Source of the DNA: Halostagnicola larsenii XH-48
GTDB lineage: Archaea; Halobacteriota; Halobacteria; Halobacteriales; Natrialbaceae
DNA length: 64,000 nt
Reading direction: 5' to 3'
NCBI RefSeq assembly: GCF_000517625.1
Contig: NZ_CP007057.1
Coordinates: 62,001-126,000 of the forward strand
In this document: positions 6,094 to 21,979 of the stretch, piece by piece
Numbering within the stretch: position 1 is the first letter of the stretch
Layout of the letters: the number at the start of each line of letters is the position of its first letter
Notes under the pieces: generated by a model
What the model saw: the letters and a program-made list of their open reading frames with translations, nothing else
Database searches by the model: none
What the model was told of the DNA's origin: nothing
Program-made: the position numbers and the translations under genes

Positions 6094-7809
6094 CTACATC
6101 CCGTACGGATCGAAGACTCGAGAGAGGAGTTTTCGCTCAGCCGCCCGGAGATGCTGTGTGAACGTCGCTCGAGAGACGCCGAATTTCGAGGCGATTTCGG
6201 TGGTGTTGTGTTCTCGCGGTCGTTCGAAGTACCCGGAGTGGTAAGCGAGTTCGATCGCCTGTAGTTGCTTGTCGGTCATCGACGCGAGGAGGTCTCCCAC
6301 CGTCGTCGTATTCGTCGGATGTCGGTTCGACTGGATCGAACCGACGCTCGCGTCGGGATAGCGCTCCTCGAGCGCCGATGAGAGCGCGTTGACGTCCCTG
6401 TCGTCGGGGCAGACGACCGTGACGGTCACCCGTCCGTGATCCGCGGCGGTGTCCAGAACGCGACCCCCGCGTTCGGCCAGCAGACCCTCAGGTGTGGGGG
6501 TGGTGACGACCAGTTCGCACCGTCCCGTCTCCGCGTCGATCGTCGCCGACGCGACGCCATCGACGCTGTCGGTGGCCGTCTGAACCGCGGCCTCGGAACC
6601 CGACTCGAGTTTGAGGAGGTAACACAGCCCGTCTTCGCGGTAGATCGCCGTCAACACTTCGAGTGTCGTCCCCTCTGGGAGGGTCGCGCTGAACGCGAGA
6701 AGCGGATGCCGGTCGTCCGTGAATTCGAACGTCACGATGACCGGTGTCGCCGATACCAGCGATTGCTTCCACTCGGCCGTGCGGAACGCGTACCCGATTG
6801 TTTCGCCGTATTCGCCGAGCACCTCGAGTTCGTGATCGTCGATTGCGTCGGGTTCGCTCCCGTAGACGGCGAGGACCCCGATGACGCTTCCGTCGTGCTT
6901 GACCGGGACTGCCGCAGCGGTCTCGAATCCGTGCGCCGTCGCGACGGCATGCCACCCCGTCAGCGTTGGTCTTGTTCCGTCCTCTCGACGCGATCGGTCG
7001 TCCGCGTCGGTAGCGTGAATCGACGGAACGACGACGGGTTCGCGTCGCTCGAGAGCGGCCAGTGCAGGCTCGAGATTCCGATCCGAGTTATCCTCCCGTG
7101 TGAACAGTTCGTCGACGTACGCCGCGTCGCCGGCGACGGACTGCGGGACGAACCCGCGCGCGTGATCGTCGGTGCCGATCCAGACGCACTCGTAGCCGTG
7201 TTCGGTCACGAGGTGCTGGCAAAACTCGCGTGCGAGTCCCCTTCGAGTCGTGGTCGCGGTGACGATCTCGAGCATCGCCTCTTTGCCCCGGCGCTCTTGG
7301 GCGAGGGCCCGTTCGGCACGATACGAGTGGACGGTCGTCTCGATTCGGCGCGCTAGCACGTCGTCGCGGCCGGCGAGCATCCGCTTGGGAAGATAGTCGG
7401 TGACCTGCCGACCGATGGCGTCGCTGGCGACGGTCTCGCTTCCGGCGCCGGTAACGAGCAGGAACGGTCGGTCGGCATCGATCTCTCGCACCGTCTCCAG
7501 TAGCCCGAGGCCGGTCCCATACTCGAGTTGATAGTCACAGACCACACAATCCGGATCGACCGTCTCGAACGCCTCGCGGGCCGACTCGAGCGTGGTTGCC
7601 GTCGTGACGATGAACGCTTCGCGTTGGTGCTCGAGGACCGCTCCGGTGGAGTCGACCCACGTCTCGTCGTCGTCGACGAGCAGGATATCGATGGCGTCCA
7701 TCCCCACAGATGAGTTGCCTTCCGGTCGGCGATCGAACTCGTCTTCGGCAGTCCGGCTGGGAGATTGATTTTCGGCAGTCCGGCGATCAGACTCGTCTCC
7801 GCCAGTCAT
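6094..7809 (-). CDS. Response regulator with GAF and bacterio-opsin-activator HTH
   Basis: Order of domains: CheY-like receiver (ILLVDDDETWVDSTG; phosphoacceptor Asp in CVVCDYQ; Lys in DYLPKRM), a coiled linker, a GAF domain (TATTTRRGLAREFCQHLV to VIGVLAVYGSEPD), a Bat-type linker domain, and the C-terminal HTH-10 DNA-binding domain (LTDKQLQA-type start, SKFGVSRATFTQHLRAAERK). Acts in the cytoplasm as a transcription factor. It is divergent from the 7TM histidine kinase at 8139, which may phosphorylate it. The start is uncertain: ATGs at 7836, 7809 and 7701; the last begins right at the receiver (MDAIDILLVDDDE). The 7809 choice gives 571 residues. Confidence 0.85.
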   Translation of the reverse strand: MTGGDESDRRTAENQSPSRTAEDEFDRRPEGNSSVGMDAIDILLVDDDETWVDSTGAVLEHQREAFIVTTATTLESAREAFETVDPDCVVCDYQLEYGTGLGLLETVREIDADRPFLLVTGAGSETVASDAIGRQVTDYLPKRMLAGRDDVLARRIETTVHSYRAERALAQERRGKEAMLEIVTATTTRRGLAREFCQHLVTEHGYECVWIGTDDHARGFVPQSVAGDAAYVDELFTREDNSDRNLEPALAALERREPVVVPSIHATDADDRSRREDGTRPTLTGWHAVATAHGFETAAAVPVKHDGSVIGVLAVYGSEPDAIDDHELEVLGEYGETIGYAFRTAEWKQSLVSATPVIVTFEFTDDRHPLLAFSATLPEGTTLEVLTAIYREDGLCYLLKLESGSEAAVQTATDSVDGVASATIDAETGRCELVVTTPTPEGLLAERGGRVLDTAADHGRVTVTVVCPDDRDVNALSSALEERYPDASVGSIQSNRHPTNTTTVGDLLASMTDKQLQAIELAYHSGYFERPREHNTTEIASKFGVSRATFTQHLRAAERKLLSRVFDPYGM

Positions 7810-8138
7810 GATCGCGATATCGCGGCGACGTTCCATGTGGCTCGCGATTGGGCAGGTATCTGATTGACCGTCCACCAGTTACACCCGGTGAATCGTCGGT
7901 GGTGGACCATTTCGTGTGACAGTCTCCGCCCCAGACCGTAAAGTAATACCCATCGTATGGTGGTACAGTGTGGGAAACGAAGGCGACTGCCCTCAACGAC
8001 CGGATACGGCTGCTTCCTAGCTGTATCTCCCGAATCGCGTTTTACCCGCACCACTTTCAGAATAGTACAACCGGGACACCGAGCGACAATTGATGACAAA
8101 ATAGTAAAGTATAGACGACTGGCGTGTGAGAGCAGCGT

Positions 8139-9968
8139 ATGACGTGGCAGTGGACCGTATTCACCGTCCCACTGGTCGTCGCGTTCTGTCTGTTATGTGT
8201 CGTGGCGGCGTTTCTGTTCGCCCGCTGGCGACGAAACGACAGCGTCCCCGGCATCGCACTCGCAACAGGCCTCGTCATATCCATCGCGGTGACCCTCGGC
8301 TGGTACGTCCTCGAGCTTTCGGCCGTCTCCCTCGAGACCAAACTGCTGTTCAACCAGTTACAGTACATCGGGCTCGCCCCCGTGACCCCGTTCATTCTGG
8401 GCTACGTGCTCGTCTACATCGGCCGTGGCGACCTTCTGACGCGTCGGGGATATCTCCTGTTGTTCGCCCCGGCTGTCCTCACCCTCTTTGCTGTTTTTAC
8501 CAACGACTTCCACTGGCTGTTCTGGGCCGACGTCTCGCTCCACCACGGCGAGTCGTCCGTCATGCTCACCAACTACTTCGGTCCGGCCTATGCGGGGTTC
8601 TTCGCGTACACGTGCGCATACGCGATCACCAGCATGGCACTTCTCGGTTGGAAGGCTATCGACGCTCACGGCGTCCACCGCTGGCAGATCGGGGCGCTGA
8701 TCGTCGGCATCGTCGCGCCGCTTTTCGGCGGAACCGTCTACGTCCTCGGGTTCGTTCCGCCGCAGTACCCGACGCCGACGTACGTCGGGTTCGTGGTGAC
8801 GGCGGTCGCGTTCGCCTGGCCCGTGTTTCGGCTGGACCTGTTCGGGTTAGTCCCCATCGCCTACCGGACCCTCGTCGAACAGATGGACGACGGCGTCGTC
8901 GCCTGCGACGAGAACGGAACCATCGTCACCGCCAACGACGGTGCGGCCACGCTCCTCGAGTCGACGCCCGCTGCCCTGGTCGGCGAACTGGTCGAGGACG
9001 AACTGGCCCTGATCGTGGCGGACGAAAACGGCGCTCCTCCTCATCTCGCCGACGGACCCGGTGAGTGGACGACGACCGTCGGGAATCGGGTCGTTGATGT
9101 CTCGGTCACGCGCCTCGAGCAATCGGACACCCGCGTCGGTCGGCTGTACCTCCTCACGGACGTCACGGAGCGCCACAACAGGGAGCGACGATTGAATCGG
9201 CAGAACACGTACCTCGACGAGTTCGCGTCGGTCGTCTCCCACGACATCGCCACGCCACTGACCATCATCGAGAACCAGGCGCAACTGGTCGAGATGACGG
9301 GCGACACCGACCACGTCGACGAGATTTTCGAATCGACCGAGCGGATCCACGAGCTGATGGACGAACTGCTCGAGTTGGCTCGGCAGGGGAAAGCGGTCGA
9401 CGAGACCGAGCCGGTCGACCTCGCGACGATCACCCGGACGGTCTGGCGGGACATTGACCGTCAGGAGAGCGGGCTCATTGTCGAATCCTCGAAGGGTTTT
9501 CTCGCAAGCGAAACGCGACTCGTTCAACTCCTCGAGAATCTCCTGCAGAACGCGGTGACACACGGTTCGCCAGCTCGCAGGTCGGAAACCGACGCCGGGA
9601 GCCACCGCGGGGGAGGCGGGGCAGGGGCCCGCGAACGCGACCTGACGATCCGTGTTGGGGCGCTCTCGGACGGTTTCTACCTCGAGGACGACGGTGTCGG
9701 TATCCCGCCTGACGACCGAGCCCAGGTGTTCGAACAGGGGTACACCTCGACCCCCGACGGAACGGGACTCGGACTGGCCATCGTCGAACGGATAGCCACC
9801 GCCCACGGGTGGACGATCACGGCGACGGAGAGCGACGAAGGCGGTGCGCGGTTCGAAGTCGTTGGCGTCGATGCCGTCCCCGCCGACAGTCTCGAGGACG
9901 ATACTGATCGGTTGCGGACAGGCGATCGGTCAGTTGGCGCGACGAACGGTCGCGTTCCCGAGCGCTGA
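8139..9968 (+). CDS. 7TM-sensor histidine kinase with PAS domain
   Basis: A 609-residue membrane kinase. Seven hydrophobic segments (residues ~5-235) form the haloarchaeal 7TM sensor region; a PAS-like domain follows (~240-345, DDGVVACDENGTIVTANDGA). The HisKA box is EFASVVSHDIATPL with H368 as the phosphorylation site, and the HATPase has N (LLENLLQNAVTHG), G1 (EDDGVGIPPDD) and G2 (GTGLGLAIVERI) boxes. A Gly/Arg/Ser-rich insert (RRSETDAGSHRGGGGAGAR) sits inside the ATPase domain. An AT-rich stretch near 8097-8113 fits a TATA box for a leaderless start. The divergent regulator at 6094-7809 is the likely partner. Confidence 0.92.
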   Translation: MTWQWTVFTVPLVVAFCLLCVVAAFLFARWRRNDSVPGIALATGLVISIAVTLGWYVLELSAVSLETKLLFNQLQYIGLAPVTPFILGYVLVYIGRGDLLTRRGYLLLFAPAVLTLFAVFTNDFHWLFWADVSLHHGESSVMLTNYFGPAYAGFFAYTCAYAITSMALLGWKAIDAHGVHRWQIGALIVGIVAPLFGGTVYVLGFVPPQYPTPTYVGFVVTAVAFAWPVFRLDLFGLVPIAYRTLVEQMDDGVVACDENGTIVTANDGAATLLESTPAALVGELVEDELALIVADENGAPPHLADGPGEWTTTVGNRVVDVSVTRLEQSDTRVGRLYLLTDVTERHNRERRLNRQNTYLDEFASVVSHDIATPLTIIENQAQLVEMTGDTDHVDEIFESTERIHELMDELLELARQGKAVDETEPVDLATITRTVWRDIDRQESGLIVESSKGFLASETRLVQLLENLLQNAVTHGSPARRSETDAGSHRGGGGAGARERDLTIRVGALSDGFYLEDDGVGIPPDDRAQVFEQGYTSTPDGTGLGLAIVERIATAHGWTITATESDEGGARFEVVGVDAVPADSLEDDTDRLRTGDRSVGATNGRVPER

Positions 9969-10016: not shown

Positions 10017-10059
10017 GGCCACCACCATACACTGGTATCTGCTTCAAGTCCCGAGAGTG
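10017..10059 (+). repeat. 43-bp block upstream of first giant gene (copy 1)
   Basis: Identical over 43 bp to 15838-15880 before the second giant gene. It contains ATAC-actg-GTAT. It sits 33 bp before the leader ORF start and is better conserved than the coding sequence that follows, so a promoter or 5' leader role is possible. Confidence 0.75.
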
Positions 10060-10092
10060 TCTCGAGATTACCTGGGGGGAGGTTTTACAGAT

Positions 10093-10209
10093 ATGATCCG
10101 AGAACTGGAAGGAATAGCGGAGGGACGTTCGGACGACGCCACGCAATCACCGTGGACATCGGTCTCGAGACGTGCGATGGAAATGACGCAAACGGTCGAT
10201 TCACGATGA
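10093..10209 (+). CDS. 38-residue leader ORF, coupled to giant surface gene 1
   Basis: ATG at 10093 is preceded by a strong Shine-Dalgarno GGAGG at 10078-10082, and the stop overlaps the next start as ATGA. The paralogous ORF at 15917-16033 has the same length, the same overlap and a similar peptide (common core EGRSD, SPW, RRA, TQTVD). Between copies at least six codons differ only at the third base. No signal peptide or known domain. Possibly a translational coupler or regulator; function unknown. Confidence 0.55.
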   Translation: MIRELEGIAEGRSDDATQSPWTSVSRRAMEMTQTVDSR

Positions 10210-13200
10210 CAGCAGGAAGCCACCGTGCGGAGAGCATGTCGTTATCAATCGGTATCGCAGTCGTCCTACTGGCGGTAAGTGTCGGATTCCTTTCTGCTGG
10301 TGTCGTGGCGGAACCGATCGACGACACAGCGGGAATGTCCGGTGATGCGGCGGAAACGACTACCGTCGCACCGACGTACGAACTCGAGATCGATAACGAC
10401 GGCAGCGCCGCCGCCATCGGTTTCCCTGGCCCCGTCAACGGTACCGTCGACGATCTTTTCGTCAAGGGTACCGACGGCGTTTCCGCCGTCTACCGCTACT
10501 CGCCGGCCGACGCCACCTGGAACAACGTTCTCGAGGGTGACGGCGTCGACGACTTCGACGACGTCTCCGTCGACCCGATGGACTCATTGGTCGTCCTCAC
10601 CACCGGCCAGGGCGATTCCGAGACGATTTCGCTCAAGGTTAGCCTCAAGGCCCAGACCGACGAGACGGGTACGTCCGACCAGCGAGACGTCGACGCGGGC
10701 TGGAACTTCGTCTCCGCGCCGCAATACACCGACGCTGACGCGGCTTTCGGTGCGGACAGCGCCGCCACCGCGTCGCTCGTGCTCGAGCGCTACGACGGCC
10801 CGCGAACCGTCGCCGTCGAGCAGACGCCCGAATTCGGCGAGTACTACCTCGACAGCGGCCAACCGCCAGTGACGGATCCATTTAGCGGCTACTTCGTGTT
10901 CGCACAGGACGACGGCGCTCTCTCAACCGCTGTTAGCGACGTCGCGGATCGGGACGACGCTGACGCACAGTTAGGCCTCCCCGTCATCGAAGACGTCTCG
11001 ATCGGCGGCGAAATATCCTCGAGCGCCGAAGACGGGAACCTGGCCGACGAGGATGTCACGGTCCGACTCGACGGCGAGGAAGTCGACGTCGCTGACGGTG
11101 CCTACGAGACCACCGTCGACCCCGGCGAGTACACGCTGACCGTCGAGGCCGACGGCCACCGAACCGAGACGAGGGAACTCGACGCCCGTTTTGGTACCCA
11201 ATACGACGAAGACATCGCGCTCGATGGCCGGGTCGACAACGGTACCCGAACGTACGTCTCTGCTGCCGCCGCGACGGCGGACGCGGCCGAAGGCGACACC
11301 ATTGTGCTCCGTCCCGGCACCTACGACGAAGACGTCACGATCGAAACCGACGGCGTGACACTGCTCACAGCGGACGCCGCGGCGTCCCGCGCGGGTCCCG
11401 ATGCCGCCGCCGTCGAAACCGAAGCAGACGACGGGTCGACCGTCACGATCAACGGCGTTCTCGAGATCGACGATGCCGACAACGTGACCGTCGCGGACGT
11501 CTCGGTCCGGAGCGACCACTACGGCGTCTCCGTCGTCGACAGCGAGGATATCTCGCTCTCGGCGATAGACGCGACTGTTGGCTCCTCGGGTCTGCACTTC
11601 GACAACGCCTCGTCGGTCGAGACGACTGACTTTCGCGTCGAGGAGGGCCTCTACGGGGTAACCGTCCAGGCGGAAGGCGGCGACCTCGAGGACGTTTCGT
11701 TCGGGCGAGGCGTCGAGTTCGACGTGGCCGTCCCGGTCGCCGTCGTGGGCGAGGACGGCACCGACACGACGGCGGTCCCCGAGATATCGCTTGAGGACGA
11801 TCTGAACTACCGGGTTCCGATGTCGGACACCTACTTCGACGACGGAACCGGCTTCACGTTCGACGAAGCCGCCGCGATCGACGCCGCGATCGCGCTCGAC
11901 GGGGAGGACTCCGTCGACGCGGCCGCGGTTCAGCGAGTCTCGGACGACGCATTCGTCGTCTCGCCGGAGCTGTCGCTTCAGGCCGCGAACGATCTCGCCG
12001 AGGAGGGCGCGACGATCGAGGTTCGCGACGGCACCTACGACAAGGATGTCGAGATCACCACTGACGGGGTGACCGTCACCGGCGACGGAGCGACGTTCGA
12101 AGGGATTGTCAGCGTCAGCGACGCCCGGAACGTGACCATCGATGGGCTCAGAGTAATCGACGCGTTCAACGGCCTCATCCTCTTCGATTCGACCGACACG
12201 ACGATTACGGACGTTGAAGTCTCCGGAGCCGCCAACGGATTCGGGATTGCGGGTTCCGACGGCACCGAAATATCCGGGGTGACGGCTTCCGACAACGAAC
12301 GCGGTCTCATCGTCGCCGATAGTGACGTATACGTGACCGTTTCCGACAGCACGTTCGAAGGGAACAGGGACGGGATCCTCAACGCCGGAGACGGAACGCT
12401 CACCGTCCGGACCGGGACGATCGTCGGGAACGACGCCGGTGCCATCAACGAGGGAGACGGGGCCATCGACGCCGCCGAAAACTGGTGGGGAACTCCGAGC
12501 GGCCCAAGCGGCGATGCCGTTGGCATCGGTGACACCATCACGGACGGCGTCGAGTACGAACCGTGGCTCGACGCCCCACCGGGCGAGGATCCCGTGAGGG
12601 TCGAAGACGCGGGTCTCGCCGTTGAGAACTTCGAAACGGACACGACCGAAGCCGTCCGCGGCGATTCCATCACGACGAGCGCCGACGTAACTCACGAGGT
12701 CGAGAGCGTCGCGCCCGAGAACGCAGACGTGGCCAACGAGGTCGAGGACGTTACGTCCCAGAACGCAGACGGGTCGGAATACCGGATCGAATACGTGCTC
12801 GTCGACGGCGATTACGAGGAGACGATCGCAACGAAGCGCGTCACCCTCACCGTCGGCCAGACCGAACGCGTTACGTTCGAGGAGTCGATCCCGGAGCGCA
12901 CGACCGCCCACGAGCGACGAACCGTCGAGCACGTGGTTCGAGTCGCGGACGAAGGGGCTTCGACCGGCCGCGATCTCGAGCTGGCGAACTCGATCGAGAC
13001 CGCCGTCGAAACCGCTGACGCGACGGGGGCGAGCACGGTCGAGGTCGAACCCGGAACGTACGCGGAAGCGCTGACCGTGGACGTCGACGGCCTGACCCTC
13101 CAGTCGAGCGACGGCGCCGAGGAGACAACCCTCGCCGCGGAGACGGCGACGGTCGCCGGCGAAGACATCACGGTCGACGGATTCACGTTCGACGGCGGAG

Positions 13201-15425
13201 CGGGCGATGCCGCGGTCGTTCTCGCCGGCGACGGCGCGACGCTACGCTCGAGCGTCATTGACTCCGGAGACGCGACCGACGCCGTTCGCGTCGCCGCCGC
13301 CGATGTCGAGGTCACCGACAGCGAACTGTCCGGAGCGACCGACGCGGGCGTCCGGTTCACCGACGGCACTCCCGACGGTACCGTCTCCGAGAGCGACATC
13401 GTTGACAACGGCGTCGGCGTCGTCAACGACGGAACCGTCACCGTCGACGCCCGCTGGAACTGGTGGGGGAGCGCCGGGGGGCCCGGAACGAGCGGGGCCA
13501 ACGATGCCAGCGGCGACGTCGGCGTCGAACCGTGGCTCGACGGCCCGATCCCGGACGGCGAGGCGGTCACCGGCGACATCGCCGGGACGGTCACCGCGTC
13601 CGGCGAAACCAGCGGAACCGACGCCTCGGCGGCGGGAACGATTATGACTACCGCGACACCCGGCGAGACGGATCCGGTCTCCGACGCGGCGGTGACTGTG
13701 TACCCGTTCGATCCCGACGCGTCGGACGAGGAATCGATGGACCCGATCACCGTCGCGTCTGACGGGACCTACGGGATCCCCGACCTCCCGATCGGCACCC
13801 ACGGTCTCGAGGTCAAAGCGGACGGGTTCGCCTCCGAGGTTCGCGCCGTCACCGTCAAGCAGGACGCGAGGACGGATGCGACCGACTTCGCTCTCGAGTA
13901 CGCCGAGAGCGGGACGGTCACGGGCGAGGTCGATCTCGACTACGTCGACCCTGCCGAGGGCCTGACCGTCACGGTCGCCCTCGAGGGGACCGAGTACGCG
14001 ACGGATGTCGATTTCGATGGCGAGGCCGGCACGAAATCGTTCACCATCGACGGCGTGGACGTCGACGTCGACGACGGCTACGCGCTGACCGCCTCGACCG
14101 ACTCGGTTCACTACGGCGAGGAGGTCACGGTCGACGCCTTCGCGGTCGACGTCGGCGAGACCGTCGATGTCGGTCAACTGACGTTCGAACGCGATACCGA
14201 AACAGTCACCGGGACGGCGACGGCCTCCGGCGACACGGCAGACGGGGGCAAAATGATGACCACGGCCGCCACGCCGGGCACCGGCGAGCCCGTCACAGAC
14301 GCGACCGTCACGGTCCATCACTTCGATACCGAGGCGGCCGACAACGGGGACAGAACCGTCGACGTCACTGACGGGACGTTCACCGTTCCAGACGTGCCGG
14401 TCGGTACGCACGGCTTCGTCCTCGAGGGTGATTCGATCGCCAGTACCCTCGAGACGGAGACGGTCGAGACCGGCGGTGAGAACGTCGTCGACTTCGAACC
14501 CGCCTACGCCTCGGGCGGCACCGTCACCGGTACCGTTACGCTTCCACACGCCGCCGACGGCGACTTCGCGGTCGACATGGCGGTCCTCAACGGCGGGACC
14601 GAGGTGGCGACGGGGACGGCGACCGTCCCGGACGGCGAGCAGTCGAGCGAATACTCCATCGAGGACGTGGACGTGAACGTCGACGACGGCTACACGGTCG
14701 AGGCAACGACTGAGGCCTTCGTCGGCACTGAATCGGTCCAAGACGTGACCGTCGATGTCGACGAAACCGCCGGCAAAGTCGACATCGCGTTCGACAAGTC
14801 GGACGCGGTGGCCCAGAACGTCGCCCTCGAGCGCGATGTGAGCGGTACCGCCACAGTCGGCGAGACGGTCACCTACACGGCGACGGTGACCAACGACGCC
14901 GGGACGCCGATCGAGGGGACGACCGTCGACACGAGCGACGACGGCGAGGAAATCACCTACGCCGACGGGCAGTCTGCGACCACGGACGCCGACGGCCGGG
15001 CGACGTTCGAGGTGTCGACCGAGATGCCCCACACGGGCGATTTTGCTACGGAAGACCCGATCGAGTTCACGTTCACCGAGAGCGCGACCGGACACTCGGC
15101 CGGCGACACCGTCGAGTTCGAGGTTGGAGCGGCGGCGAATGTAGACGCCGAGGTGACCAGCACGTCGACGGCGACCTACCCGGTTGCTACGGTCGATATC
15201 GAGGTCGTAGACGAGTTCGGCAACGACGTCTACACCGAGGTCGAAATCGACGTCTCCGGGTTCGAGGAGTTGAAAGACCCGACCAGCGGGGACACGTATA
15301 CCACCACCCCCGGCCCGGTCAAGTTCCGATCCCATGCACTCGAGGATATCACGGAAGTCAGGATAACGGAACCCACCACCGGTGTCTACGACGACGTGCA
15401 CTTCGAACTCGACCCAGACAGGTGA
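10206..15425 (+). CDS. Giant beta-helix surface protein 1
   Basis: A 1739-residue exported protein. The ATG at 10206 was chosen because the paralogue at 16030 starts at the same point, followed by a hydrophobic signal (~residues 14-35). Then: a ~180-residue N-terminal module shared with the paralogue (GFPGPVNGTVDDLFVKGTDG; GWNFVSAPQ), a carboxypeptidase-regulatory-like unit, right-handed beta-helix blocks each closed by an NWWG motif (AENWWGTPSGPSG and WNWWGSAGGPGTSG) followed by an EPWLD segment, an intervening CARDB-like domain, several Cna-B/carboxypeptidase-like repeats (IGTHGLEVKADGF) and a terminal Ig-like domain. No PGF-CTERM tail, so attachment may be non-covalent. Likely an adhesin or matrix protein. 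Confidence 0.85.
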   Translation: MTAGSHRAESMSLSIGIAVVLLAVSVGFLSAGVVAEPIDDTAGMSGDAAETTTVAPTYELEIDNDGSAAAIGFPGPVNGTVDDLFVKGTDGVSAVYRYSPADATWNNVLEGDGVDDFDDVSVDPMDSLVVLTTGQGDSETISLKVSLKAQTDETGTSDQRDVDAGWNFVSAPQYTDADAAFGADSAATASLVLERYDGPRTVAVEQTPEFGEYYLDSGQPPVTDPFSGYFVFAQDDGALSTAVSDVADRDDADAQLGLPVIEDVSIGGEISSSAEDGNLADEDVTVRLDGEEVDVADGAYETTVDPGEYTLTVEADGHRTETRELDARFGTQYDEDIALDGRVDNGTRTYVSAAAATADAAEGDTIVLRPGTYDEDVTIETDGVTLLTADAAASRAGPDAAAVETEADDGSTVTINGVLEIDDADNVTVADVSVRSDHYGVSVVDSEDISLSAIDATVGSSGLHFDNASSVETTDFRVEEGLYGVTVQAEGGDLEDVSFGRGVEFDVAVPVAVVGEDGTDTTAVPEISLEDDLNYRVPMSDTYFDDGTGFTFDEAAAIDAAIALDGEDSVDAAAVQRVSDDAFVVSPELSLQAANDLAEEGATIEVRDGTYDKDVEITTDGVTVTGDGATFEGIVSVSDARNVTIDGLRVIDAFNGLILFDSTDTTITDVEVSGAANGFGIAGSDGTEISGVTASDNERGLIVADSDVYVTVSDSTFEGNRDGILNAGDGTLTVRTGTIVGNDAGAINEGDGAIDAAENWWGTPSGPSGDAVGIGDTITDGVEYEPWLDAPPGEDPVRVEDAGLAVENFETDTTEAVRGDSITTSADVTHEVESVAPENADVANEVEDVTSQNADGSEYRIEYVLVDGDYEETIATKRVTLTVGQTERVTFEESIPERTTAHERRTVEHVVRVADEGASTGRDLELANSIETAVETADATGASTVEVEPGTYAEALTVDVDGLTLQSSDGAEETTLAAETATVAGEDITVDGFTFDGGAGDAAVVLAGDGATLRSSVIDSGDATDAVRVAAADVEVTDSELSGATDAGVRFTDGTPDGTVSESDIVDNGVGVVNDGTVTVDARWNWWGSAGGPGTSGANDASGDVGVEPWLDGPIPDGEAVTGDIAGTVTASGETSGTDASAAGTIMTTATPGETDPVSDAAVTVYPFDPDASDEESMDPITVASDGTYGIPDLPIGTHGLEVKADGFASEVRAVTVKQDARTDATDFALEYAESGTVTGEVDLDYVDPAEGLTVTVALEGTEYATDVDFDGEAGTKSFTIDGVDVDVDDGYALTASTDSVHYGEEVTVDAFAVDVGETVDVGQLTFERDTETVTGTATASGDTADGGKMMTTAATPGTGEPVTDATVTVHHFDTEAADNGDRTVDVTDGTFTVPDVPVGTHGFVLEGDSIASTLETETVETGGENVVDFEPAYASGGTVTGTVTLPHAADGDFAVDMAVLNGGTEVATGTATVPDGEQSSEYSIEDVDVNVDDGYTVEATTEAFVGTESVQDVTVDVDETAGKVDIAFDKSDAVAQNVALERDVSGTATVGETVTYTATVTNDAGTPIEGTTVDTSDDGEEITYADGQSATTDADGRATFEVSTEMPHTGDFATEDPIEFTFTESATGHSAGDTVEFEVGAAANVDAEVTSTSTATYPVATVDIEVVDEFGNDVYTEVEIDVSGFEELKDPTSGDTYTTTPGPVKFRSHALEDITEVRITEPTTGVYDDVHFELDPDR

Positions 15426-15427
15426 AT

Positions 15428-15491
15428 CCCTCGGGGGAACGTGGTTCGAGACGCCAGCGGCGTCTCCTCAGCAAACGAAGCCACGGGCTTC
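15428..15491 (+). repeat. Second copy of hairpin-rich dispersed repeat
   Basis: 15428-15477 matches the minus strand of 3313-3362. It holds GAGACGCC-agc-GGCGTCTC at 15447-15465, then CGAAGCC-acg-GGCTTCG at 15475-15491, the same 3-nt-loop design with different stem sequences. It starts just after the stop of giant gene 1. The remaining 350 bp to the 43-bp block hold no recognised gene. Confidence 0.65.
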
Positions 15492-15837
15492 GCGGACATT
15501 GCGACGCTTCGATTCGCTCGGTTATGGACGATTCAGCTCTTCCGACCAACCTCGAGACACTGGGCTTGGGTATCCGTGGAGCCGGCCGTCACCCGCTCAT
15601 CTGTCGGGCTCTACGACCATCGGCGACCGAGCGGTGACGCCGTCCGCCGAGTACCCGACTGACAACGCAGTTACCGTCTCCTCCGAGCTGAGGTCGGCAG
15701 CGATAACCGATCCAGTTCGAAGAGGTGATCCGAGCGGTCGTCACGTCGTCGATGGAGTATCTCAATCCTTCGAGTTTCGGGTCGAAGCCGACCGTCCCCG
15801 CCGCGAAGTGGGTGATTGTGTCGGGCCTCGAACCGAC

Positions 15838-15880
15838 GGCCACCACCATACACTGGTATCTGCTTCAAGTCCCGAGAGTG
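15838..15880 (+). repeat. 43-bp block upstream of second giant gene (copy 2)
   Basis: Exact copy of 10017-10059. Its position relative to the leader ORF is conserved (36 bp versus 33 bp), so it was duplicated together with the gene and kept unchanged. Confidence 0.75.
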
Positions 15881-15916
15881 ACTCTTTCAGAGTATGTGGG
15901 GGTGCATTTCACAGAC

Positions 15917-16033
15917 ATGATTCGAGAATCGGAGAGGGAAACAGAGGGACGTTCGGACGGCGCCATGCGATCACCATGGGCGTCAGTTGCGAGACGTGCG
16001 GTTGAAACGACACAGACGGTTGATACACGATGA
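15917..16033 (+). CDS. 38-residue leader ORF, coupled to giant surface gene 2
   Basis: Paralogue of 10093-10209: same length, ATGA overlap with the next gene, and a GGGGGTG Shine-Dalgarno-like run at about 15897-15903. Peptide begins MIRESERETEGRSDG and ends TTQTVDTR. It is Arg- and Glu-rich with no signal peptide. Retention of an open frame of the same length in both copies suggests that it is translated; function unknown. Confidence 0.55.
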   Translation: MIRESERETEGRSDGAMRSPWASVARRAVETTQTVDTR

Positions 16034-19000
16034 CAGCGGAAAGCCATCGTGCTGAAACGGTATCGCTGGTGATCGGTATCGTCGCCGTTCTACTCATAGC
16101 GAGTCTCGGGTTGCTTTCTGCTGGCGTCGCAGCGGACACGATCGTTTCCGGGGCGGACATGACCGGTGGCGCGGCAGAACCGGCTGACGACGCACCGACG
16201 TACGAACTCGAGATCGACAACGATGGTAGCGCCGCCGCCATCGGGTTCCCCGGGCCCGTCGATGGCACCGTCGACGACCTCTTCGTCGAGGGCACCGACG
16301 GCGTTTCCGCCGTCTACCGGTACTCAGCGGCGGACGAGGGCTGGAATAACGTCCTCGAGGAGGAGGGCGTCAACGACTTCTCGGACGTCTCTGTCGATCC
16401 GATGGATTCGCTGGTCGTCCTCACGACCGGCCAGGGAGATTCGGAGGCGATTCCGCTCGAGGTCACCCTCGAGACGGAAACCGGTGACACGGTTACGCCC
16501 GGCCAGCGAGCCGTCGAAGCGGGGTGGAACTTCGTCTCCTCGCCACAACACACCGACGCCGACACCGTTTTCGGTTCGGGAACCGCCAATACCTCGCTCG
16601 TGCTCGAGCGCTACGACGGCCCGCGAACCGTCGCCGTCGAGCAGACACCCGAGTTCGGCGAGTACTACCTCGACAGCGGCCACCCGCCGACGACGGATCC
16701 CTTTAGCGGCTATTTCGTGTTCGCACAGGACAACGGCACCGTTCCGACCGTCGCGAGCGGTATCACGGATCGGGACGACGCCGACGCCCAATTGGATCTC
16801 CCGACTTTCGACGAAGTGACGGTCCGCGGGGACATCACGTCGGGAGCCGAAGACGGGGCGCTCACCGACGGGGATCTCACCGTTCGACTCGACGGCGAGG
16901 AGATCGACGTTACCGATGGCGAGTACGAGGAAACGCTCGCACCCGGCGAGTACACGGTGACCGTGGAAGCCGACGGTCACCAGACGGCGACGCGGGAACT
17001 CGACGCCCGTTTCGCCACGACATACGAGGAGGACATCGAACTCGAGGGTGCCGTCGTGAATCGGGACGGCGAGAAATCGTACGTCTCGGCGGCCGCGGCT
17101 GCGGAAGACGCTGGCGACGGCGCGACGATCTCCCTCGAATCGGGAACGTACGAGGACGATCTCGAGATCACCGCCGACAATGTCACCATCGAGGGAACCT
17201 CTGGAGTCTCGCTCGTGTCGACCGCTGCGAAGACCGGCGAGACGACTGTCGTCGGCGACATCGATATCGCGGCCAACGGGGTGACGATCAGGGACCTTTC
17301 GGTGCACGACGGAACGGTCTCCGCCGGTAGCTCCGACGACCTGGCGTTGTCCGGCCTCGACATCATGGGGGAGACCGGTACTGCTGATCCTGGAGTGAAT
17401 TCGGCCGGTATCGAGGTCGAAGGGGGAACAAACCTCTCGATCACGGACGTAGCGATCGAGGCCGACCGCGGTATCTCCGTCAGCGGCGTTCGAACCGCCG
17501 ATCTGCGCGGTATCGACGTGACGACCGACGACGGAACGGGGCTCGTTCTCTACGACGCCACGGGCGTCGACCTCGACGGAGTGGCCGTCGAGGGGGCGGA
17601 CCAGGCCGTCGGACTCATTAATCTCGCTGACAGCACAGCCGGGAACGTCACGATCGAAGACAGCAATCTCGGGCTCGCCGTCGGGAACGAAAGCGGTTCC
17701 CAGACGCGACCGGAGAACCTTACGTTGACGGGCGATCTCGAGCTGGGGGCTATCGTCCCGTACGCGGAGATGACCGAGGATACGACGGATCCGGTCGATA
17801 TCGATCGGCCCGACGGATTGACGTACGCGATTCGAACCGAACCGGTCAGCGGAGTGCCGGTCTCGATAACCGGCTTCGCGTACGACGAAACAAGTGCCAT
17901 CGCGGGTGCGGTGGCGCTCACCGATGCGAGCAGCGGGCAGCCGCTCGCCGAAGCCAGTGCGGTCCAACGGATCTCGGACGAGGTGTACGTCGTCGCGCCG
18001 GAAACGTCGCCCCAGGACGCCGCCGACATCGCAAGCGAGGGCGCGACGATCGAAGTTCGGGAGGGGACGTACGACGGGGAGATGTCGATCCAGACCGACG
18101 GCGTCACTGTCTCCGGCGAAAATGCGACGTTCGAAGAAAAATTCGAGATCGACAGCGCGAACGACGTCACCCTTGACGGACTGTCGGCCACGAACCACAC
18201 CATCGGAATCGAGGTGGCGTCTTCGAGTGGGGTGACTCTCAGGGATGTAAACGCGAGCGGAAACGAGTATGAGGGTTTGCTGGTCGATTCGTCCCAGAAC
18301 GTCGAGATCGTCGACGCGACAGCCAGCGATAACTACAACGGGTTGATCAACGTTGGCGACGGCACCTCCGTCACCGCGTCAAACAGCACGTTTGCCGAGA
18401 ACGAAGGGTGGGGAGTCGGGACCGACGGCGACGGCTCGCTCACCGTTCGAAACAGCACGATCAACGGCAACGGCGACGGCGCTGGCATTTGGAACGACGG
18501 GACGCTGGATGCCGCCGAGAACTGGTGGGGTGATTCGAGTGGACCGAGCGGCGAAGCCGACGGCACCGGCGACTCCGTCGACAGCGGCGTTGACTACGAG
18601 CCGTGGCTCGACGCCCCGCCGGGAGAGGGCCCCGGCGGCCTCGAGGACGCCGGCGTCGAACTATCGAACTTCGAAACGGACGCGACCGCGGCCAACCGCG
18701 GCGACACCGTCACCACGAGCGTCGACGTGACGAACGCGGTCGAAAGCGCCGGTATTTCGACGATGGCGATCAATGACGGCGCGGAATTCGAGGTGGAGTA
18801 CGTGCTTGTCGACGGCAAGGACGAAGCACAGATCGCGAGCGAGACGGTGACTGTCGTCGCGGGCGAGACGGAGACCGTCGAGTTCACCGAATCGCTGCCC
18901 GGAAGCACGACCGCTCACGAGGAACGATCCGTCGAACACGAAATCAGGATCGCCGGCGAAGGGGTAGGCGAACGCGCCGACCTCGAGCTCTCCAACCCGG

Positions 19001-21102
19001 TTCAGACCGCACTCGAGTTCGCCGAGTCGGAGGGCACGAACACGGTCGACGTCGAATCTGGGACGTACGACGAAACGGTCGACCTTGACGTTGACGGCCT
19101 GACAGTGACCGGTCCAGCCGACGGAACCGCGACGATCACGAACGACTCCACGCCGGTAACCGTCTCCGGAACCGGAACCACCGTCGAGGGCCTAACGATC
19201 GAATCGACCGATCTCGATTCTGCCGTCGAAATCGTCGATCCGGCGACCGACGTAACCGTGGCCGACAACGCCATCGACGGCGGGGTCTTTGTGGCCGCGA
19301 ACGACGGCAATCTCGACGGCGTCACGATCGAAAGAAACGAGATCGAGGCTGTGGAGAACAACGGCGTACTCGCGTCGGTTAGCGGCGATGATACGGTGAT
19401 CGACGGCCTCGAGATCGTCGACAACGTCTTCGGCGAGTACCACCAGAACGCGATCAGAGTGTACTCCGCCAGTGGCGGAGAATTCATTGCCCCGGTCGAG
19501 ATCACCGGGAACGAAATCGTCGAGGAGGATATCTTTGAATCCGACGGTATCTACGTCCACGCAGCGATAGAAAGCGTCTCGATCGAGAACAACGAGATTC
19601 GTAACGCTCAAAGTAGCGCGATCAACGTCCAAGGAGCTGCGGCCGAGATCACGGTTCGCCAGAATACGATCGCCGACAACGGAGCGGGGATCAAACTCTA
19701 CAGCTCCGGGACGCTCGAGGCGACCGAGAACTGGTGGGGCGACGCAAGCGGCCCGAGTGGGATCGGCGATGGTACCGGGGACGCAATCGAAGTTGACGGT
19801 GATGGATCCGTCGAGTACGAACCGTGGCTCGACGGGCCGATTCCCGACGGCGAGCCGGTCACCGGCGATGTAACCGGGACTGTGATCGCCTCCGGCGAGA
19901 TGACCACGCGGTCGACAGTCGGAAGTGCCGCCCCCATCACGGACGCGGACGTCACGATCCATCTGTACGACCCCGACGCGGTTGGCGACGGTAACGAGAC
20001 GGTCGCCGTGGACGACGAAGGGACGTTCCTCGCGGAGGACATCCCGATCGGAACGCACGGACTCGTCGTGGAGGCCGATGGTTACGCGACCGACGAGCGC
20101 ACCGTTCGGGTCGATCGCGACCAGACGACGACCGCCGATTTCGACCTCGATTACGCGGAGGGCGGTTCCATCGAGGGAACCGTGTCGCTGGGCGGCGAGC
20201 CGAGCGAATCGGTGAGCGTCGACGTGATCGCGACAAACGGCGACGAGACGTTCACCGACGCCGTCACGATAGACGACCAAAGCGATAGCGCGGAGTACTC
20301 GATCGACGCCGACGTCGACGTCGACGATGGATACGCGGTGACAGCCGAGGCGACCGGCGACGCTGCGGACGAGTTCGCGACCGAAACCGACGACGTCGAG
20401 GTCGGAATCGGGGAGACCGTCACCCTCGACCTCGCGCTCGAACCGCTCGCGACGCAGGTGGATTACGAGGCCGATCCTGCCGACGAGACCGTCATCGACG
20501 ACGGCTCGGACGCGATCACGTACACGGTAACCAGCGCAAACGCTCTGGGAATTTCGGTCGCCGGGATCGAGGTCGAAGCCGACGCCTCCGCCGGGGAGAG
20601 CGTCGATGTCAACGGCGACGGTGACACCGCGACGGAAGAGACGGACGCGACCGGCGCGGTCGAGTTCGTCGTCACCTCCGATACCATCCAAGACGATGTC
20701 GGGGTCGCTTTCACCGAGCGACAGACCGGAAACGAACACGGCGTGACCGGGACTCTCGAGGTCATCAATGAGGTTGACGAACTGAACCTGGCACTCGAGT
20801 CCCCGGTGCCCGACGCGACGGTCATTGAGATTTCCCTCGAGGTTATCGGCGTTCACGGCGATCCCGTTGACGGCGAGTCCATCAACTTGCAGATCAACGA
20901 GGGAAGCGGCCGTCTTCACCTTCACGGGATGGATCAAGGTGATCAGACGAACCACTACACGGACGGTAGCGGTGACTTCGCTCCCACCCAAAATACCGGG
21001 GACCAGCCCCAGTACATCGGTGAGTACGGAGAGCAAGTCGAGATCGAAGCGTCGGACGAAGACGGCGAGGTCGTCGAGACGGCCACAGCCGTGTTGGAGT
21101 GA
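16030..21102 (+). CDS. Giant beta-helix surface protein 2
   Basis: A 1690-residue paralogue of the preceding giant protein, with signal segment (~residues 14-38), the same N-terminal module (GWNFVSSPQHTDAD; PEFGEYYLDSG), two parallel beta-helix regions ending in AENWWGDSSGPSG and ENWWGDASGPSG, a CARDB-like domain between them, one carboxypeptidase-like repeat rather than several, and a C-terminal Ig-like region. The beta-helix parts have diverged more than the N-terminus and the EPWLD linkers, as expected for ligand-facing coils. No PGF-CTERM tail. Probably cell-surface adhesion or glycan binding; beta-helices of this kind can also be lyases, but no catalytic set is evident. Confidence 0.85.
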   Translation: MTAESHRAETVSLVIGIVAVLLIASLGLLSAGVAADTIVSGADMTGGAAEPADDAPTYELEIDNDGSAAAIGFPGPVDGTVDDLFVEGTDGVSAVYRYSAADEGWNNVLEEEGVNDFSDVSVDPMDSLVVLTTGQGDSEAIPLEVTLETETGDTVTPGQRAVEAGWNFVSSPQHTDADTVFGSGTANTSLVLERYDGPRTVAVEQTPEFGEYYLDSGHPPTTDPFSGYFVFAQDNGTVPTVASGITDRDDADAQLDLPTFDEVTVRGDITSGAEDGALTDGDLTVRLDGEEIDVTDGEYEETLAPGEYTVTVEADGHQTATRELDARFATTYEEDIELEGAVVNRDGEKSYVSAAAAAEDAGDGATISLESGTYEDDLEITADNVTIEGTSGVSLVSTAAKTGETTVVGDIDIAANGVTIRDLSVHDGTVSAGSSDDLALSGLDIMGETGTADPGVNSAGIEVEGGTNLSITDVAIEADRGISVSGVRTADLRGIDVTTDDGTGLVLYDATGVDLDGVAVEGADQAVGLINLADSTAGNVTIEDSNLGLAVGNESGSQTRPENLTLTGDLELGAIVPYAEMTEDTTDPVDIDRPDGLTYAIRTEPVSGVPVSITGFAYDETSAIAGAVALTDASSGQPLAEASAVQRISDEVYVVAPETSPQDAADIASEGATIEVREGTYDGEMSIQTDGVTVSGENATFEEKFEIDSANDVTLDGLSATNHTIGIEVASSSGVTLRDVNASGNEYEGLLVDSSQNVEIVDATASDNYNGLINVGDGTSVTASNSTFAENEGWGVGTDGDGSLTVRNSTINGNGDGAGIWNDGTLDAAENWWGDSSGPSGEADGTGDSVDSGVDYEPWLDAPPGEGPGGLEDAGVELSNFETDATAANRGDTVTTSVDVTNAVESAGISTMAINDGAEFEVEYVLVDGKDEAQIASETVTVVAGETETVEFTESLPGSTTAHEERSVEHEIRIAGEGVGERADLELSNPVQTALEFAESEGTNTVDVESGTYDETVDLDVDGLTVTGPADGTATITNDSTPVTVSGTGTTVEGLTIESTDLDSAVEIVDPATDVTVADNAIDGGVFVAANDGNLDGVTIERNEIEAVENNGVLASVSGDDTVIDGLEIVDNVFGEYHQNAIRVYSASGGEFIAPVEITGNEIVEEDIFESDGIYVHAAIESVSIENNEIRNAQSSAINVQGAAAEITVRQNTIADNGAGIKLYSSGTLEATENWWGDASGPSGIGDGTGDAIEVDGDGSVEYEPWLDGPIPDGEPVTGDVTGTVIASGEMTTRSTVGSAAPITDADVTIHLYDPDAVGDGNETVAVDDEGTFLAEDIPIGTHGLVVEADGYATDERTVRVDRDQTTTADFDLDYAEGGSIEGTVSLGGEPSESVSVDVIATNGDETFTDAVTIDDQSDSAEYSIDADVDVDDGYAVTAEATGDAADEFATETDDVEVGIGETVTLDLALEPLATQVDYEADPADETVIDDGSDAITYTVTSANALGISVAGIEVEADASAGESVDVNGDGDTATEETDATGAVEFVVTSDTIQDDVGVAFTERQTGNEHGVTGTLEVINEVDELNLALESPVPDATVIEISLEVIGVHGDPVDGESINLQINEGSGRLHLHGMDQGDQTNHYTDGSGDFAPTQNTGDQPQYIGEYGEQVEIEASDEDGEVVETATAVLE

Positions 21103-21107
21103 TCGAA

Positions 21108-21203
21108 ATGACACAACTACGAAACACTACCAAGGAATCGACGATTGGTCATCACCGTCTTTCGGCAACCAGCGCGCGGATTCGGACGGGGCGATCCGAA
21201 TGA
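21108..21203 (+). CDS. 31-residue leader ORF before PGF-CTERM gene
   Basis: ATG at 21108 follows a GGAG at 21096-21099 inside the end of the giant gene. The peptide starts MTQLRNTTKESTIGHH and ends RIRTGRSE, is Arg-rich, and its stop overlaps the next start as ATGA, exactly as in the two 38-residue leader ORFs. No sequence similarity to those is obvious, and a chance ORF is possible. Confidence 0.35.
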   Translation: MTQLRNTTKESTIGHHRLSATSARIRTGRSE

Positions 21204-21979
21204 CGGGGCCGACAGAATCCGGCCGACCCGCACTCGTAGCACTGCTCGTTTGCGCCTTGGCGCTCTCGACCATCGCTGCCGTCGGGCCGGTAGCCGCACA
21301 GGATGACGGGCCGCCGCCGCTGCCGGCCGCATACTACGGCGATCTCGAGATCAACGGCGAACCGGCCGACGCGGGCGTCGTCGTCGAAGCCGAAGTTGAC
21401 GGCGAGGTACGGGGCTCGAGTACAGTCGGTGAAAACGCCACCTACGGCGGACCCGACGCCGAGGACCCGAAACTCGAGGTCGACGGAACTGACGGCGACG
21501 CCGGCGAGAATGTCACGTTCTACGTCGAGAGTGAGGACTTCGACAGGACGGCGATCGACGACTACGACAACATCACATGGGAACCGGAAACCGTCAAGCG
21601 GATCGATCTCAGCGCTGCGGTCGAATTCGATGATGGTGATGATGGGAATAGTGATGATGGGAATAGTGATGATGGCGATGATAGTGGCGGTGAAGACAGT
21701 GACGATGGGGACGGCGGTGACGGTGATAATGGGAGTAGTGAAGATAACGATGATGGGGAGGTCGATGGTGGTAACGGCGATGACGGTGATGATGCGAATA
21801 GTGAAGATGGTGATGATGGTGGCGGTGAAGACAGCGCTGATGGGGACGGTGATGATGGAGGCAGTGAAGGCGGTGATAATAGTGATGGTAACCCAATCCC
21901 CGGGTTTGGATTTGGAGCTGCAGGGATTGCGGTATTCAGTGCGTTCGCGCTGCGTAATTACCGAGTGACTTCTCGCTGA
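21200..21979 (+). CDS. PGF-CTERM surface protein with Asp/Gly repeat
   Basis: 259 residues. Signal peptide (residues ~9-34, LVALLVCALALSTIAAVGPV then AAQ), a compact domain (~38-145; GDLEINGEPADAGVVVEAEV, FYVESEDFDRTAI) resembling secreted haloarchaeal carrier-like domains, then ~90 residues of DDGD/GNSDDG repeats, and the tail NPIPGFGFGAAGIAVFSAFAL, a PGF-CTERM archaeosortase signal. The repeat DNA is tandem GATGATGG-type with AGT and GAT codons, unlike the GC-rich codons around it. The gene follows giant gene 2 closely. It might anchor the giant proteins, which lack tails; that is inference from position only. Confidence 0.8.
   Translation: MTGPTESGRPALVALLVCALALSTIAAVGPVAAQDDGPPPLPAAYYGDLEINGEPADAGVVVEAEVDGEVRGSSTVGENATYGGPDAEDPKLEVDGTDGDAGENVTFYVESEDFDRTAIDDYDNITWEPETVKRIDLSAAVEFDDGDDGNSDDGNSDDGDDSGGEDSDDGDGGDGDNGSSEDNDDGEVDGGNGDDGDDANSEDGDDGGGEDSADGDGDDGGSEGGDNSDGNPIPGFGFGAAGIAVFSAFALRNYRVTSR

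Follow-up and report, generated by a model that had tools for sequence, protein, structure and literature searches.

Short reading frames joined by ATGA to large surface-protein genes in Halostagnicola larsenii: a duplicated unit with candidate translated leader cistrons

The window analysed here is a 64-kb stretch of a 465-kb haloarchaeal contig (Halostagnicola larsenii XH-48, NZ_CP007057.1), and it carries on its forward strand three consecutive genes, each of which is preceded by a short open reading frame (ORF). Surface gene 1 (10206..15425, 1739 aa) encodes a protein with a signal peptide, a conserved 190-aa domain, beta-helix/NosD repeats, and a carboxypeptidase-regulatory-like domain. 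Surface gene 2 (16030..21102, 1690 aa) is its paralogue; the two proteins share 50% amino acid identity overall and ~72% over the first 300 residues, and the 190-aa domain is N-terminal in both. Gene 3 (21200..21979, 259 aa) encodes a secreted domain followed by an acidic linker and a PGF-CTERM-like tail (NPIPGFGFGAAGIAVFSAFALRNYRVTSR), which was recognised by eye and matches the NCBIfam model only at an E value of 0.11. On the 5′ side of the surface genes, a gene for a Bat-like HTH_10 regulator (6094-7875, reverse strand) lies divergent from one for a 7TM histidine kinase (8139-9968, forward strand), and these two proteins are possible candidate regulators of the surface genes.

The short ORFs, all on the forward strand, comprise leader 1 (10093..10209, 38 codons, MIRELEGIAEGRSDDATQSPWTSVSRRAMEMTQTVDSR) and leader 2 (15917..16033, 38 codons, MIRESERETEGRSDGAMRSPWASVARRAVETTQTVDTR), and leader 3 (21108..21203, 31 codons, MTQLRNTTKESTIGHHRLSATSARIRTGRSE), the sequence of which is unrelated to the other two. 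As the initial annotation had described, the TGA stop of each leader overlaps the ATG of the following gene (10206, 16030, and 21200, respectively) as ATGA. The frame of leader 1 stays open on its 5′ side as far as a GTG at 10057, which would make it 50 codons long, and further still, while leader 3, if read from the GTG at 21099, which shares a GTGA with the gene 2 stop codon, would comprise 34 codons.

Leaders 1 and 2 are parts of one duplicated unit, which consists of a 43-bp block, a leader, and a beta-helix surface gene of ~1.7 kaa; the three leaders are not a single phenomenon, leader 3 being separate from the other two. The two 38-codon leaders had been called paralogous and equal in length, and this is confirmed by the comparison, with 68% amino acid and 77% nucleotide identity between them. 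The 43-bp blocks (10017..10059 and 15838..15880, forward strand) are identical at 43 of 43 positions, form the sharp upstream edge of the duplicated unit, and end with a GTG codon in the leader frame; a single indel of 3 nt separates the two copies between block and leader, and the copies of the surface gene are 70% identical in their first 120 nt. The block contains the motif ATAC-ACTG-GTAT and occurs only twice in its own genome. Since divergence at synonymous sites of the two genes is 31–52%, the full identity of the block points to strong constraint or local conversion, and the block, judged from this identity, is probably a promoter or operator.

The expected frequency of such overlaps was estimated from a 400-kb sample of the organism's own chromosome, in which gene starts were assigned approximately, by a simple caller based on codon usage. 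ATGA starts occur in 105 of the 254 sampled genes (41%), and of the 86 ATGA genes that have no called upstream partner, 10 are preceded by an overlapping ORF that begins with ATG and is 30 or more codons long. Where the upstream space is 100 nt or longer, an overlapping ORF in the same phase is found in 11 of 72 ATGA genes versus 9 of 111 other ATG genes, which is not a significant difference in rate (Fisher p 0.15); upstream ORFs of at least 30 codons are expected by chance at 8–15% of gene starts. Because the whole unit has been duplicated, only a single event should be counted for leaders 1 and 2, and the presence of three overlapping ORFs is only mildly unusual. An overlapping ORF alone is thus weak evidence, and the weight rests on the comparison of the paralogues; the baseline also serves as a caution that ATGA-coupled ORFs arise cheaply by chance in these genomes.

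This comparison bears out the claim that at least six codons differ only in the third base, with eight synonymous third-base codons counted, but 12 other codons differ non-synonymously. In total, leaders 1 and 2 are separated by 12 synonymous and 14 non-synonymous changes, corresponding to a pS of 0.416 and a pN of 0.164, which resembles the conserved N-terminal part of the surface proteins (pS 0.31–0.44 and pN 0.15 over the first 300 codons; pS 0.52 over the whole gene). Among the six possible frames, the ratio of non-synonymous to synonymous change is lowest in the leader frame (+0; 0.39), followed by its mirror frame (0.45), an order also seen in the real gene. Antisense coding as the cause of the conservation was considered and rejected, as the reverse frames do not score above the leader frame and are mirror images of it, just as in a real gene. 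When the changes are permuted with their kinds preserved, the probability of as few non-synonymous changes as observed, or fewer, is 0.026 for the 38-codon leader (0.011 jointly with an open frame) and 0.024 for the 50-codon version beginning at GTG 10057/15878 (0.007 jointly), values that derive from one sequence pair under a simple substitution null and are only modest because just two leader sequences exist. Taken by itself, the bias among codon positions does not reach significance (8, 6, and 12 changes at the three positions, p 0.12).

In both copies, the leader frame has better codon usage than the two other frames and in this respect matches the signal peptides next to it. The predicted isoelectric points are 4.7, 6.1, and 11.8 for leaders 1, 2, and 3, such that only leader 1 is clearly acidic. 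The suggestion that the peptide is under selection thus gains moderate support for leaders 1 and 2, whose substitution ratio is the lowest of six frames and equals that of the surface N-terminus, and does not extend to leader 3. The translation of leaders 1 and 2 can be proposed with moderate confidence from their single pair of sequences. As the coding pattern continues on the 5′ side of the leader ATG up to the GTG that closes the block, a leader of 50–51 codons on a leaderless mRNA is also possible.

The further claim that each leader has its own Shine–Dalgarno (SD) sequence holds for leader 1, which is preceded by GGAGG, and not for copy 2, where the aligned site (GGGGGTGCA) is without the GGAGG core; ahead of leader 3, the candidate SD (GGAGTGATC) shares bases with the gene 2 stop codon. 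In any case, the argument from SD sequences fails for haloarchaea, as SD motifs have been shown to be non-functional at the 5′-UTRs of Haloferax volcanii (PMC3986360); in that species they matter, to a variable degree and with no absolute need, for reinitiation only (PMC6728339). No SD is found before the restart codons at 10206 (ACGGTCGATTCACG) and 16030 (ACGGTTGATACACG), and only GATCC precedes that at 21200. Folding of the leader regions is no better than that of shuffled sequences (z +1.2 and +1.0), giving no sign of attenuator-type RNA structure at the leaders, and the leader region has no Rfam match. Across 282 upstream regions of the 400-kb chromosome sample (L041-L060), a BRE/TATA signal is seen at a fixed distance of about -36 to -26 from the start codons, suggesting that leaderless mRNAs dominate this genome. 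In the window, the promoter scan found no match common to both copies by which a leaderless mRNA could begin at the ATG of the surface genes themselves.

The reading that we favour, at a probability of roughly one half (about 0.52), is that both 38-codon leaders are translated as first cistrons and coupled to their surface genes. The ORFs, their ATGA overlaps, the duplication, and the codon-structured conservation are observed directly, and the transcription start, leader translation, reinitiation, and any regulatory role are inferred from them. The conserved promoter or operator block would drive an mRNA with a short coding leader at its 5′ end, of 38 codons from the ATG or possibly 50–51 codons from GTG 10057/15878 on a leaderless mRNA. 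Ribosomes would end the leader at the TGA overlapping the surface-gene ATG, and some would restart there, such that the output of the 1.7-kaa surface protein would depend on translation of the leader. Translational control of the surface genes by the leaders is plausible by analogy, as haloarchaea use strict termination–reinitiation at ATGA overlaps (PMC6728339, PMC10666635).

The same region may instead be regulatory DNA or untranslated mRNA that is kept for the control of transcription, its open frames being due to chance, and we regard this as somewhat unlikely. It would account for the fact that the most conserved part is the 43-bp block, whose complete identity goes beyond coding constraint, and it agrees with the expectation of such upstream ORFs at about one in ten starts; moreover, when the same changes are placed at random, an open frame survives in 31% of cases. 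What it does not predict is that the changes in the leaders are structured by codon in the leader frame and that the synonymous divergence of the leaders equals that of the genes. The GC content at third codon positions can be read both ways, being only 0.46–0.57 in the leaders compared with 0.80 in long genes, yet equally low in the neighbouring signal peptides (0.55 and 0.58). A more specific proposal, which appears improbable, takes GGAGG-TTTTACA as a BRE/TATA box rather than an SD, so that the mRNA would start at ~10113/15937, with a 5′-UTR of ~93 nt for the surface genes; a start set by TTTTACA at 10083 would lie downstream of the leader 1 ATG. In a scan with a profile learned from the organism's own genome, this site is the best match in copy 1, within the top 0.07% of positions, and the disuse of SD sequences at haloarchaeal 5′-UTRs fits such a role. 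However, a hit this good has a chance of about one in six over the ~267 positions scanned and is not significant, the aligned site in copy 2 is a weaker match (top 1.5%), and the coding-like pattern of the leaders is left unexplained.

Reinitiation is itself a known mechanism in haloarchaea: ATGA gene pairs in Haloferax volcanii are strictly coupled by termination–reinitiation (Huber et al. 2019, PMC6728339), and a short 3′ part of the upstream gene suffices for the coupling (Huber et al. 2023, PMC10666635). The leaders resemble these pairs in their -4 nt ATGA overlap and in coming from the same class of organism, but differ in that the upstream partner in H. volcanii is a normal gene, often encoding a subunit of a complex, whereas in the present case a single surface gene has a 38-codon ORF of its own in that position, and in that no SD precedes the restart codon at leaders 1 and 2. 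The upstream ORFs found by dRNA-seq in long 5′-UTRs of H. volcanii (PMC4983044) are a further parallel, with a short ORF of 15–31 aa lying ahead of a normal-sized gene as in the present locus; the available part of that account does not describe them as ATGA-coupled, whereas the leaders are, to judge from sequence alone. An acidic peptide is among the marks of that class, and of the present leaders only leader 1 clearly has one. If the two paralogous leaders are translated, haloarchaeal reinitiation would link individual, very costly surface proteins each to a short cistron of its own, a use that goes beyond balancing the subunits of complexes.

Searches for relatives returned little. Beyond leaders 1 and 2 themselves, no leader homologue was detected in the same genome or, by DNA search, in 60 relatives, and a protein search of 391 genomes of the class gave none that was credible, two hits with internal stops being taken as chance. 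Nothing close to the surface N-terminus is present in the family and class samples (best match, 40% identity), the genome_contigs and viral_contigs collections hold no relatives of it, and plasmid records gave no match. The 190-aa domain, which is N-terminal and duplicated together with the leader here, lies elsewhere mostly C-terminal to a subtilase or beta-helix.

Leader 3 requires a separate treatment. Its codon usage is non-coding, with its own frame not the best of the frames, and its predicted product is basic; taken alone, such an ORF is expected by chance, and leader 3 may be a chance ORF. The alternative, that it is a functional relay cistron which takes over ribosomes at the stop of gene 2 (through GTGA at 21099 or, after a gap of 5 nt, at 21108) and delivers them to the gene 3 ATG, is less likely than a chance ORF and on its own doubtful. 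In favour of a relay, coupling in H. volcanii is lost at ~20 nt (PMC10666635), and leader 3 exactly closes the 97-nt gap between the two genes. The order of a large surface protein followed by a gene 3 homologue is common in other haloarchaea, including many members of the family and order, and the arrangement of genes 2 and 3 matches the haloarchaeal pairing of a large beta-helix/NosD surface protein with a small PGF-CTERM-like anchored partner. At six such loci in five genera of the family (L062:1442-1477, L064:1460-1495, L078:1454-1489, L080:1466-1501, L066, and L079), the gene 3 homologue is preceded by an 11-codon ORF ending in ATGA or GTGA, with GGAGG or GAGGT within most of them. The encoded peptides are MTHNTTEDATR (twice), MKQNTTEVTAR, MIQQTTARCSE, MIQQIPARWSE, and MTRNAIEVFAA, and mini-ORFs of 9 and 10 codons are present in another family (L115 and L107); in the chromosomal baseline, only one of 86 orphan ATGA genes has an overlapping ORF of 9–11 codons. 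Their recurrence at the same place in five genera implies that short coupled leaders recur before gene 3, and this recurrence in the gene neighbourhood also counts in favour of the coupled reading of leaders 1 and 2. Leader 3, however, is unlike these mini-ORFs in length and sequence, with a pI of 11.8 and non-coding codon usage, most other gene 3 homologues are without any such ORF, and leaderless gaps of 20–80 nt are common. At one further locus (L088), the mini-ORF start is in frame with the gene 3 homologue, and some mini-ORFs may thus descend from an alternative start that went out of frame and was rescued by ATGA.

In its broadest form, the proposal would have dedicated leader cistrons gate giant surface proteins through leaderless mRNAs, SD-less ATGA reinitiation, and a selected peptide, with related mini-cistrons gating the membrane-anchor partner in other genera; this full combination is quite unlikely.

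Outside the window, the chromosome of the same organism carries a multi-copy element of ~150 nt on the 5′ side of small HalOD1-like genes (L129:1395-1560, L130, L131, and L135-L158). It is predicted to fold into a three-way junction (GGAAGCCA(C)/TGGCTTCC, GGGGC/GCCCC, and CGGGTG/CACCCG) with a nearly invariant core, which is followed by an almost invariant ATGATTGGATATCTTCTCCGCGGGCTTAAACATCCCGTCCGACAGACGAATCG. The element has no Rfam match and displays little covariation, as its sequence hardly varies. Its exact core is present in 48 of 125 family genomes, with ~10 copies in some and 0 for the reversed control, and the element is a candidate for an undescribed RNA or cis element.
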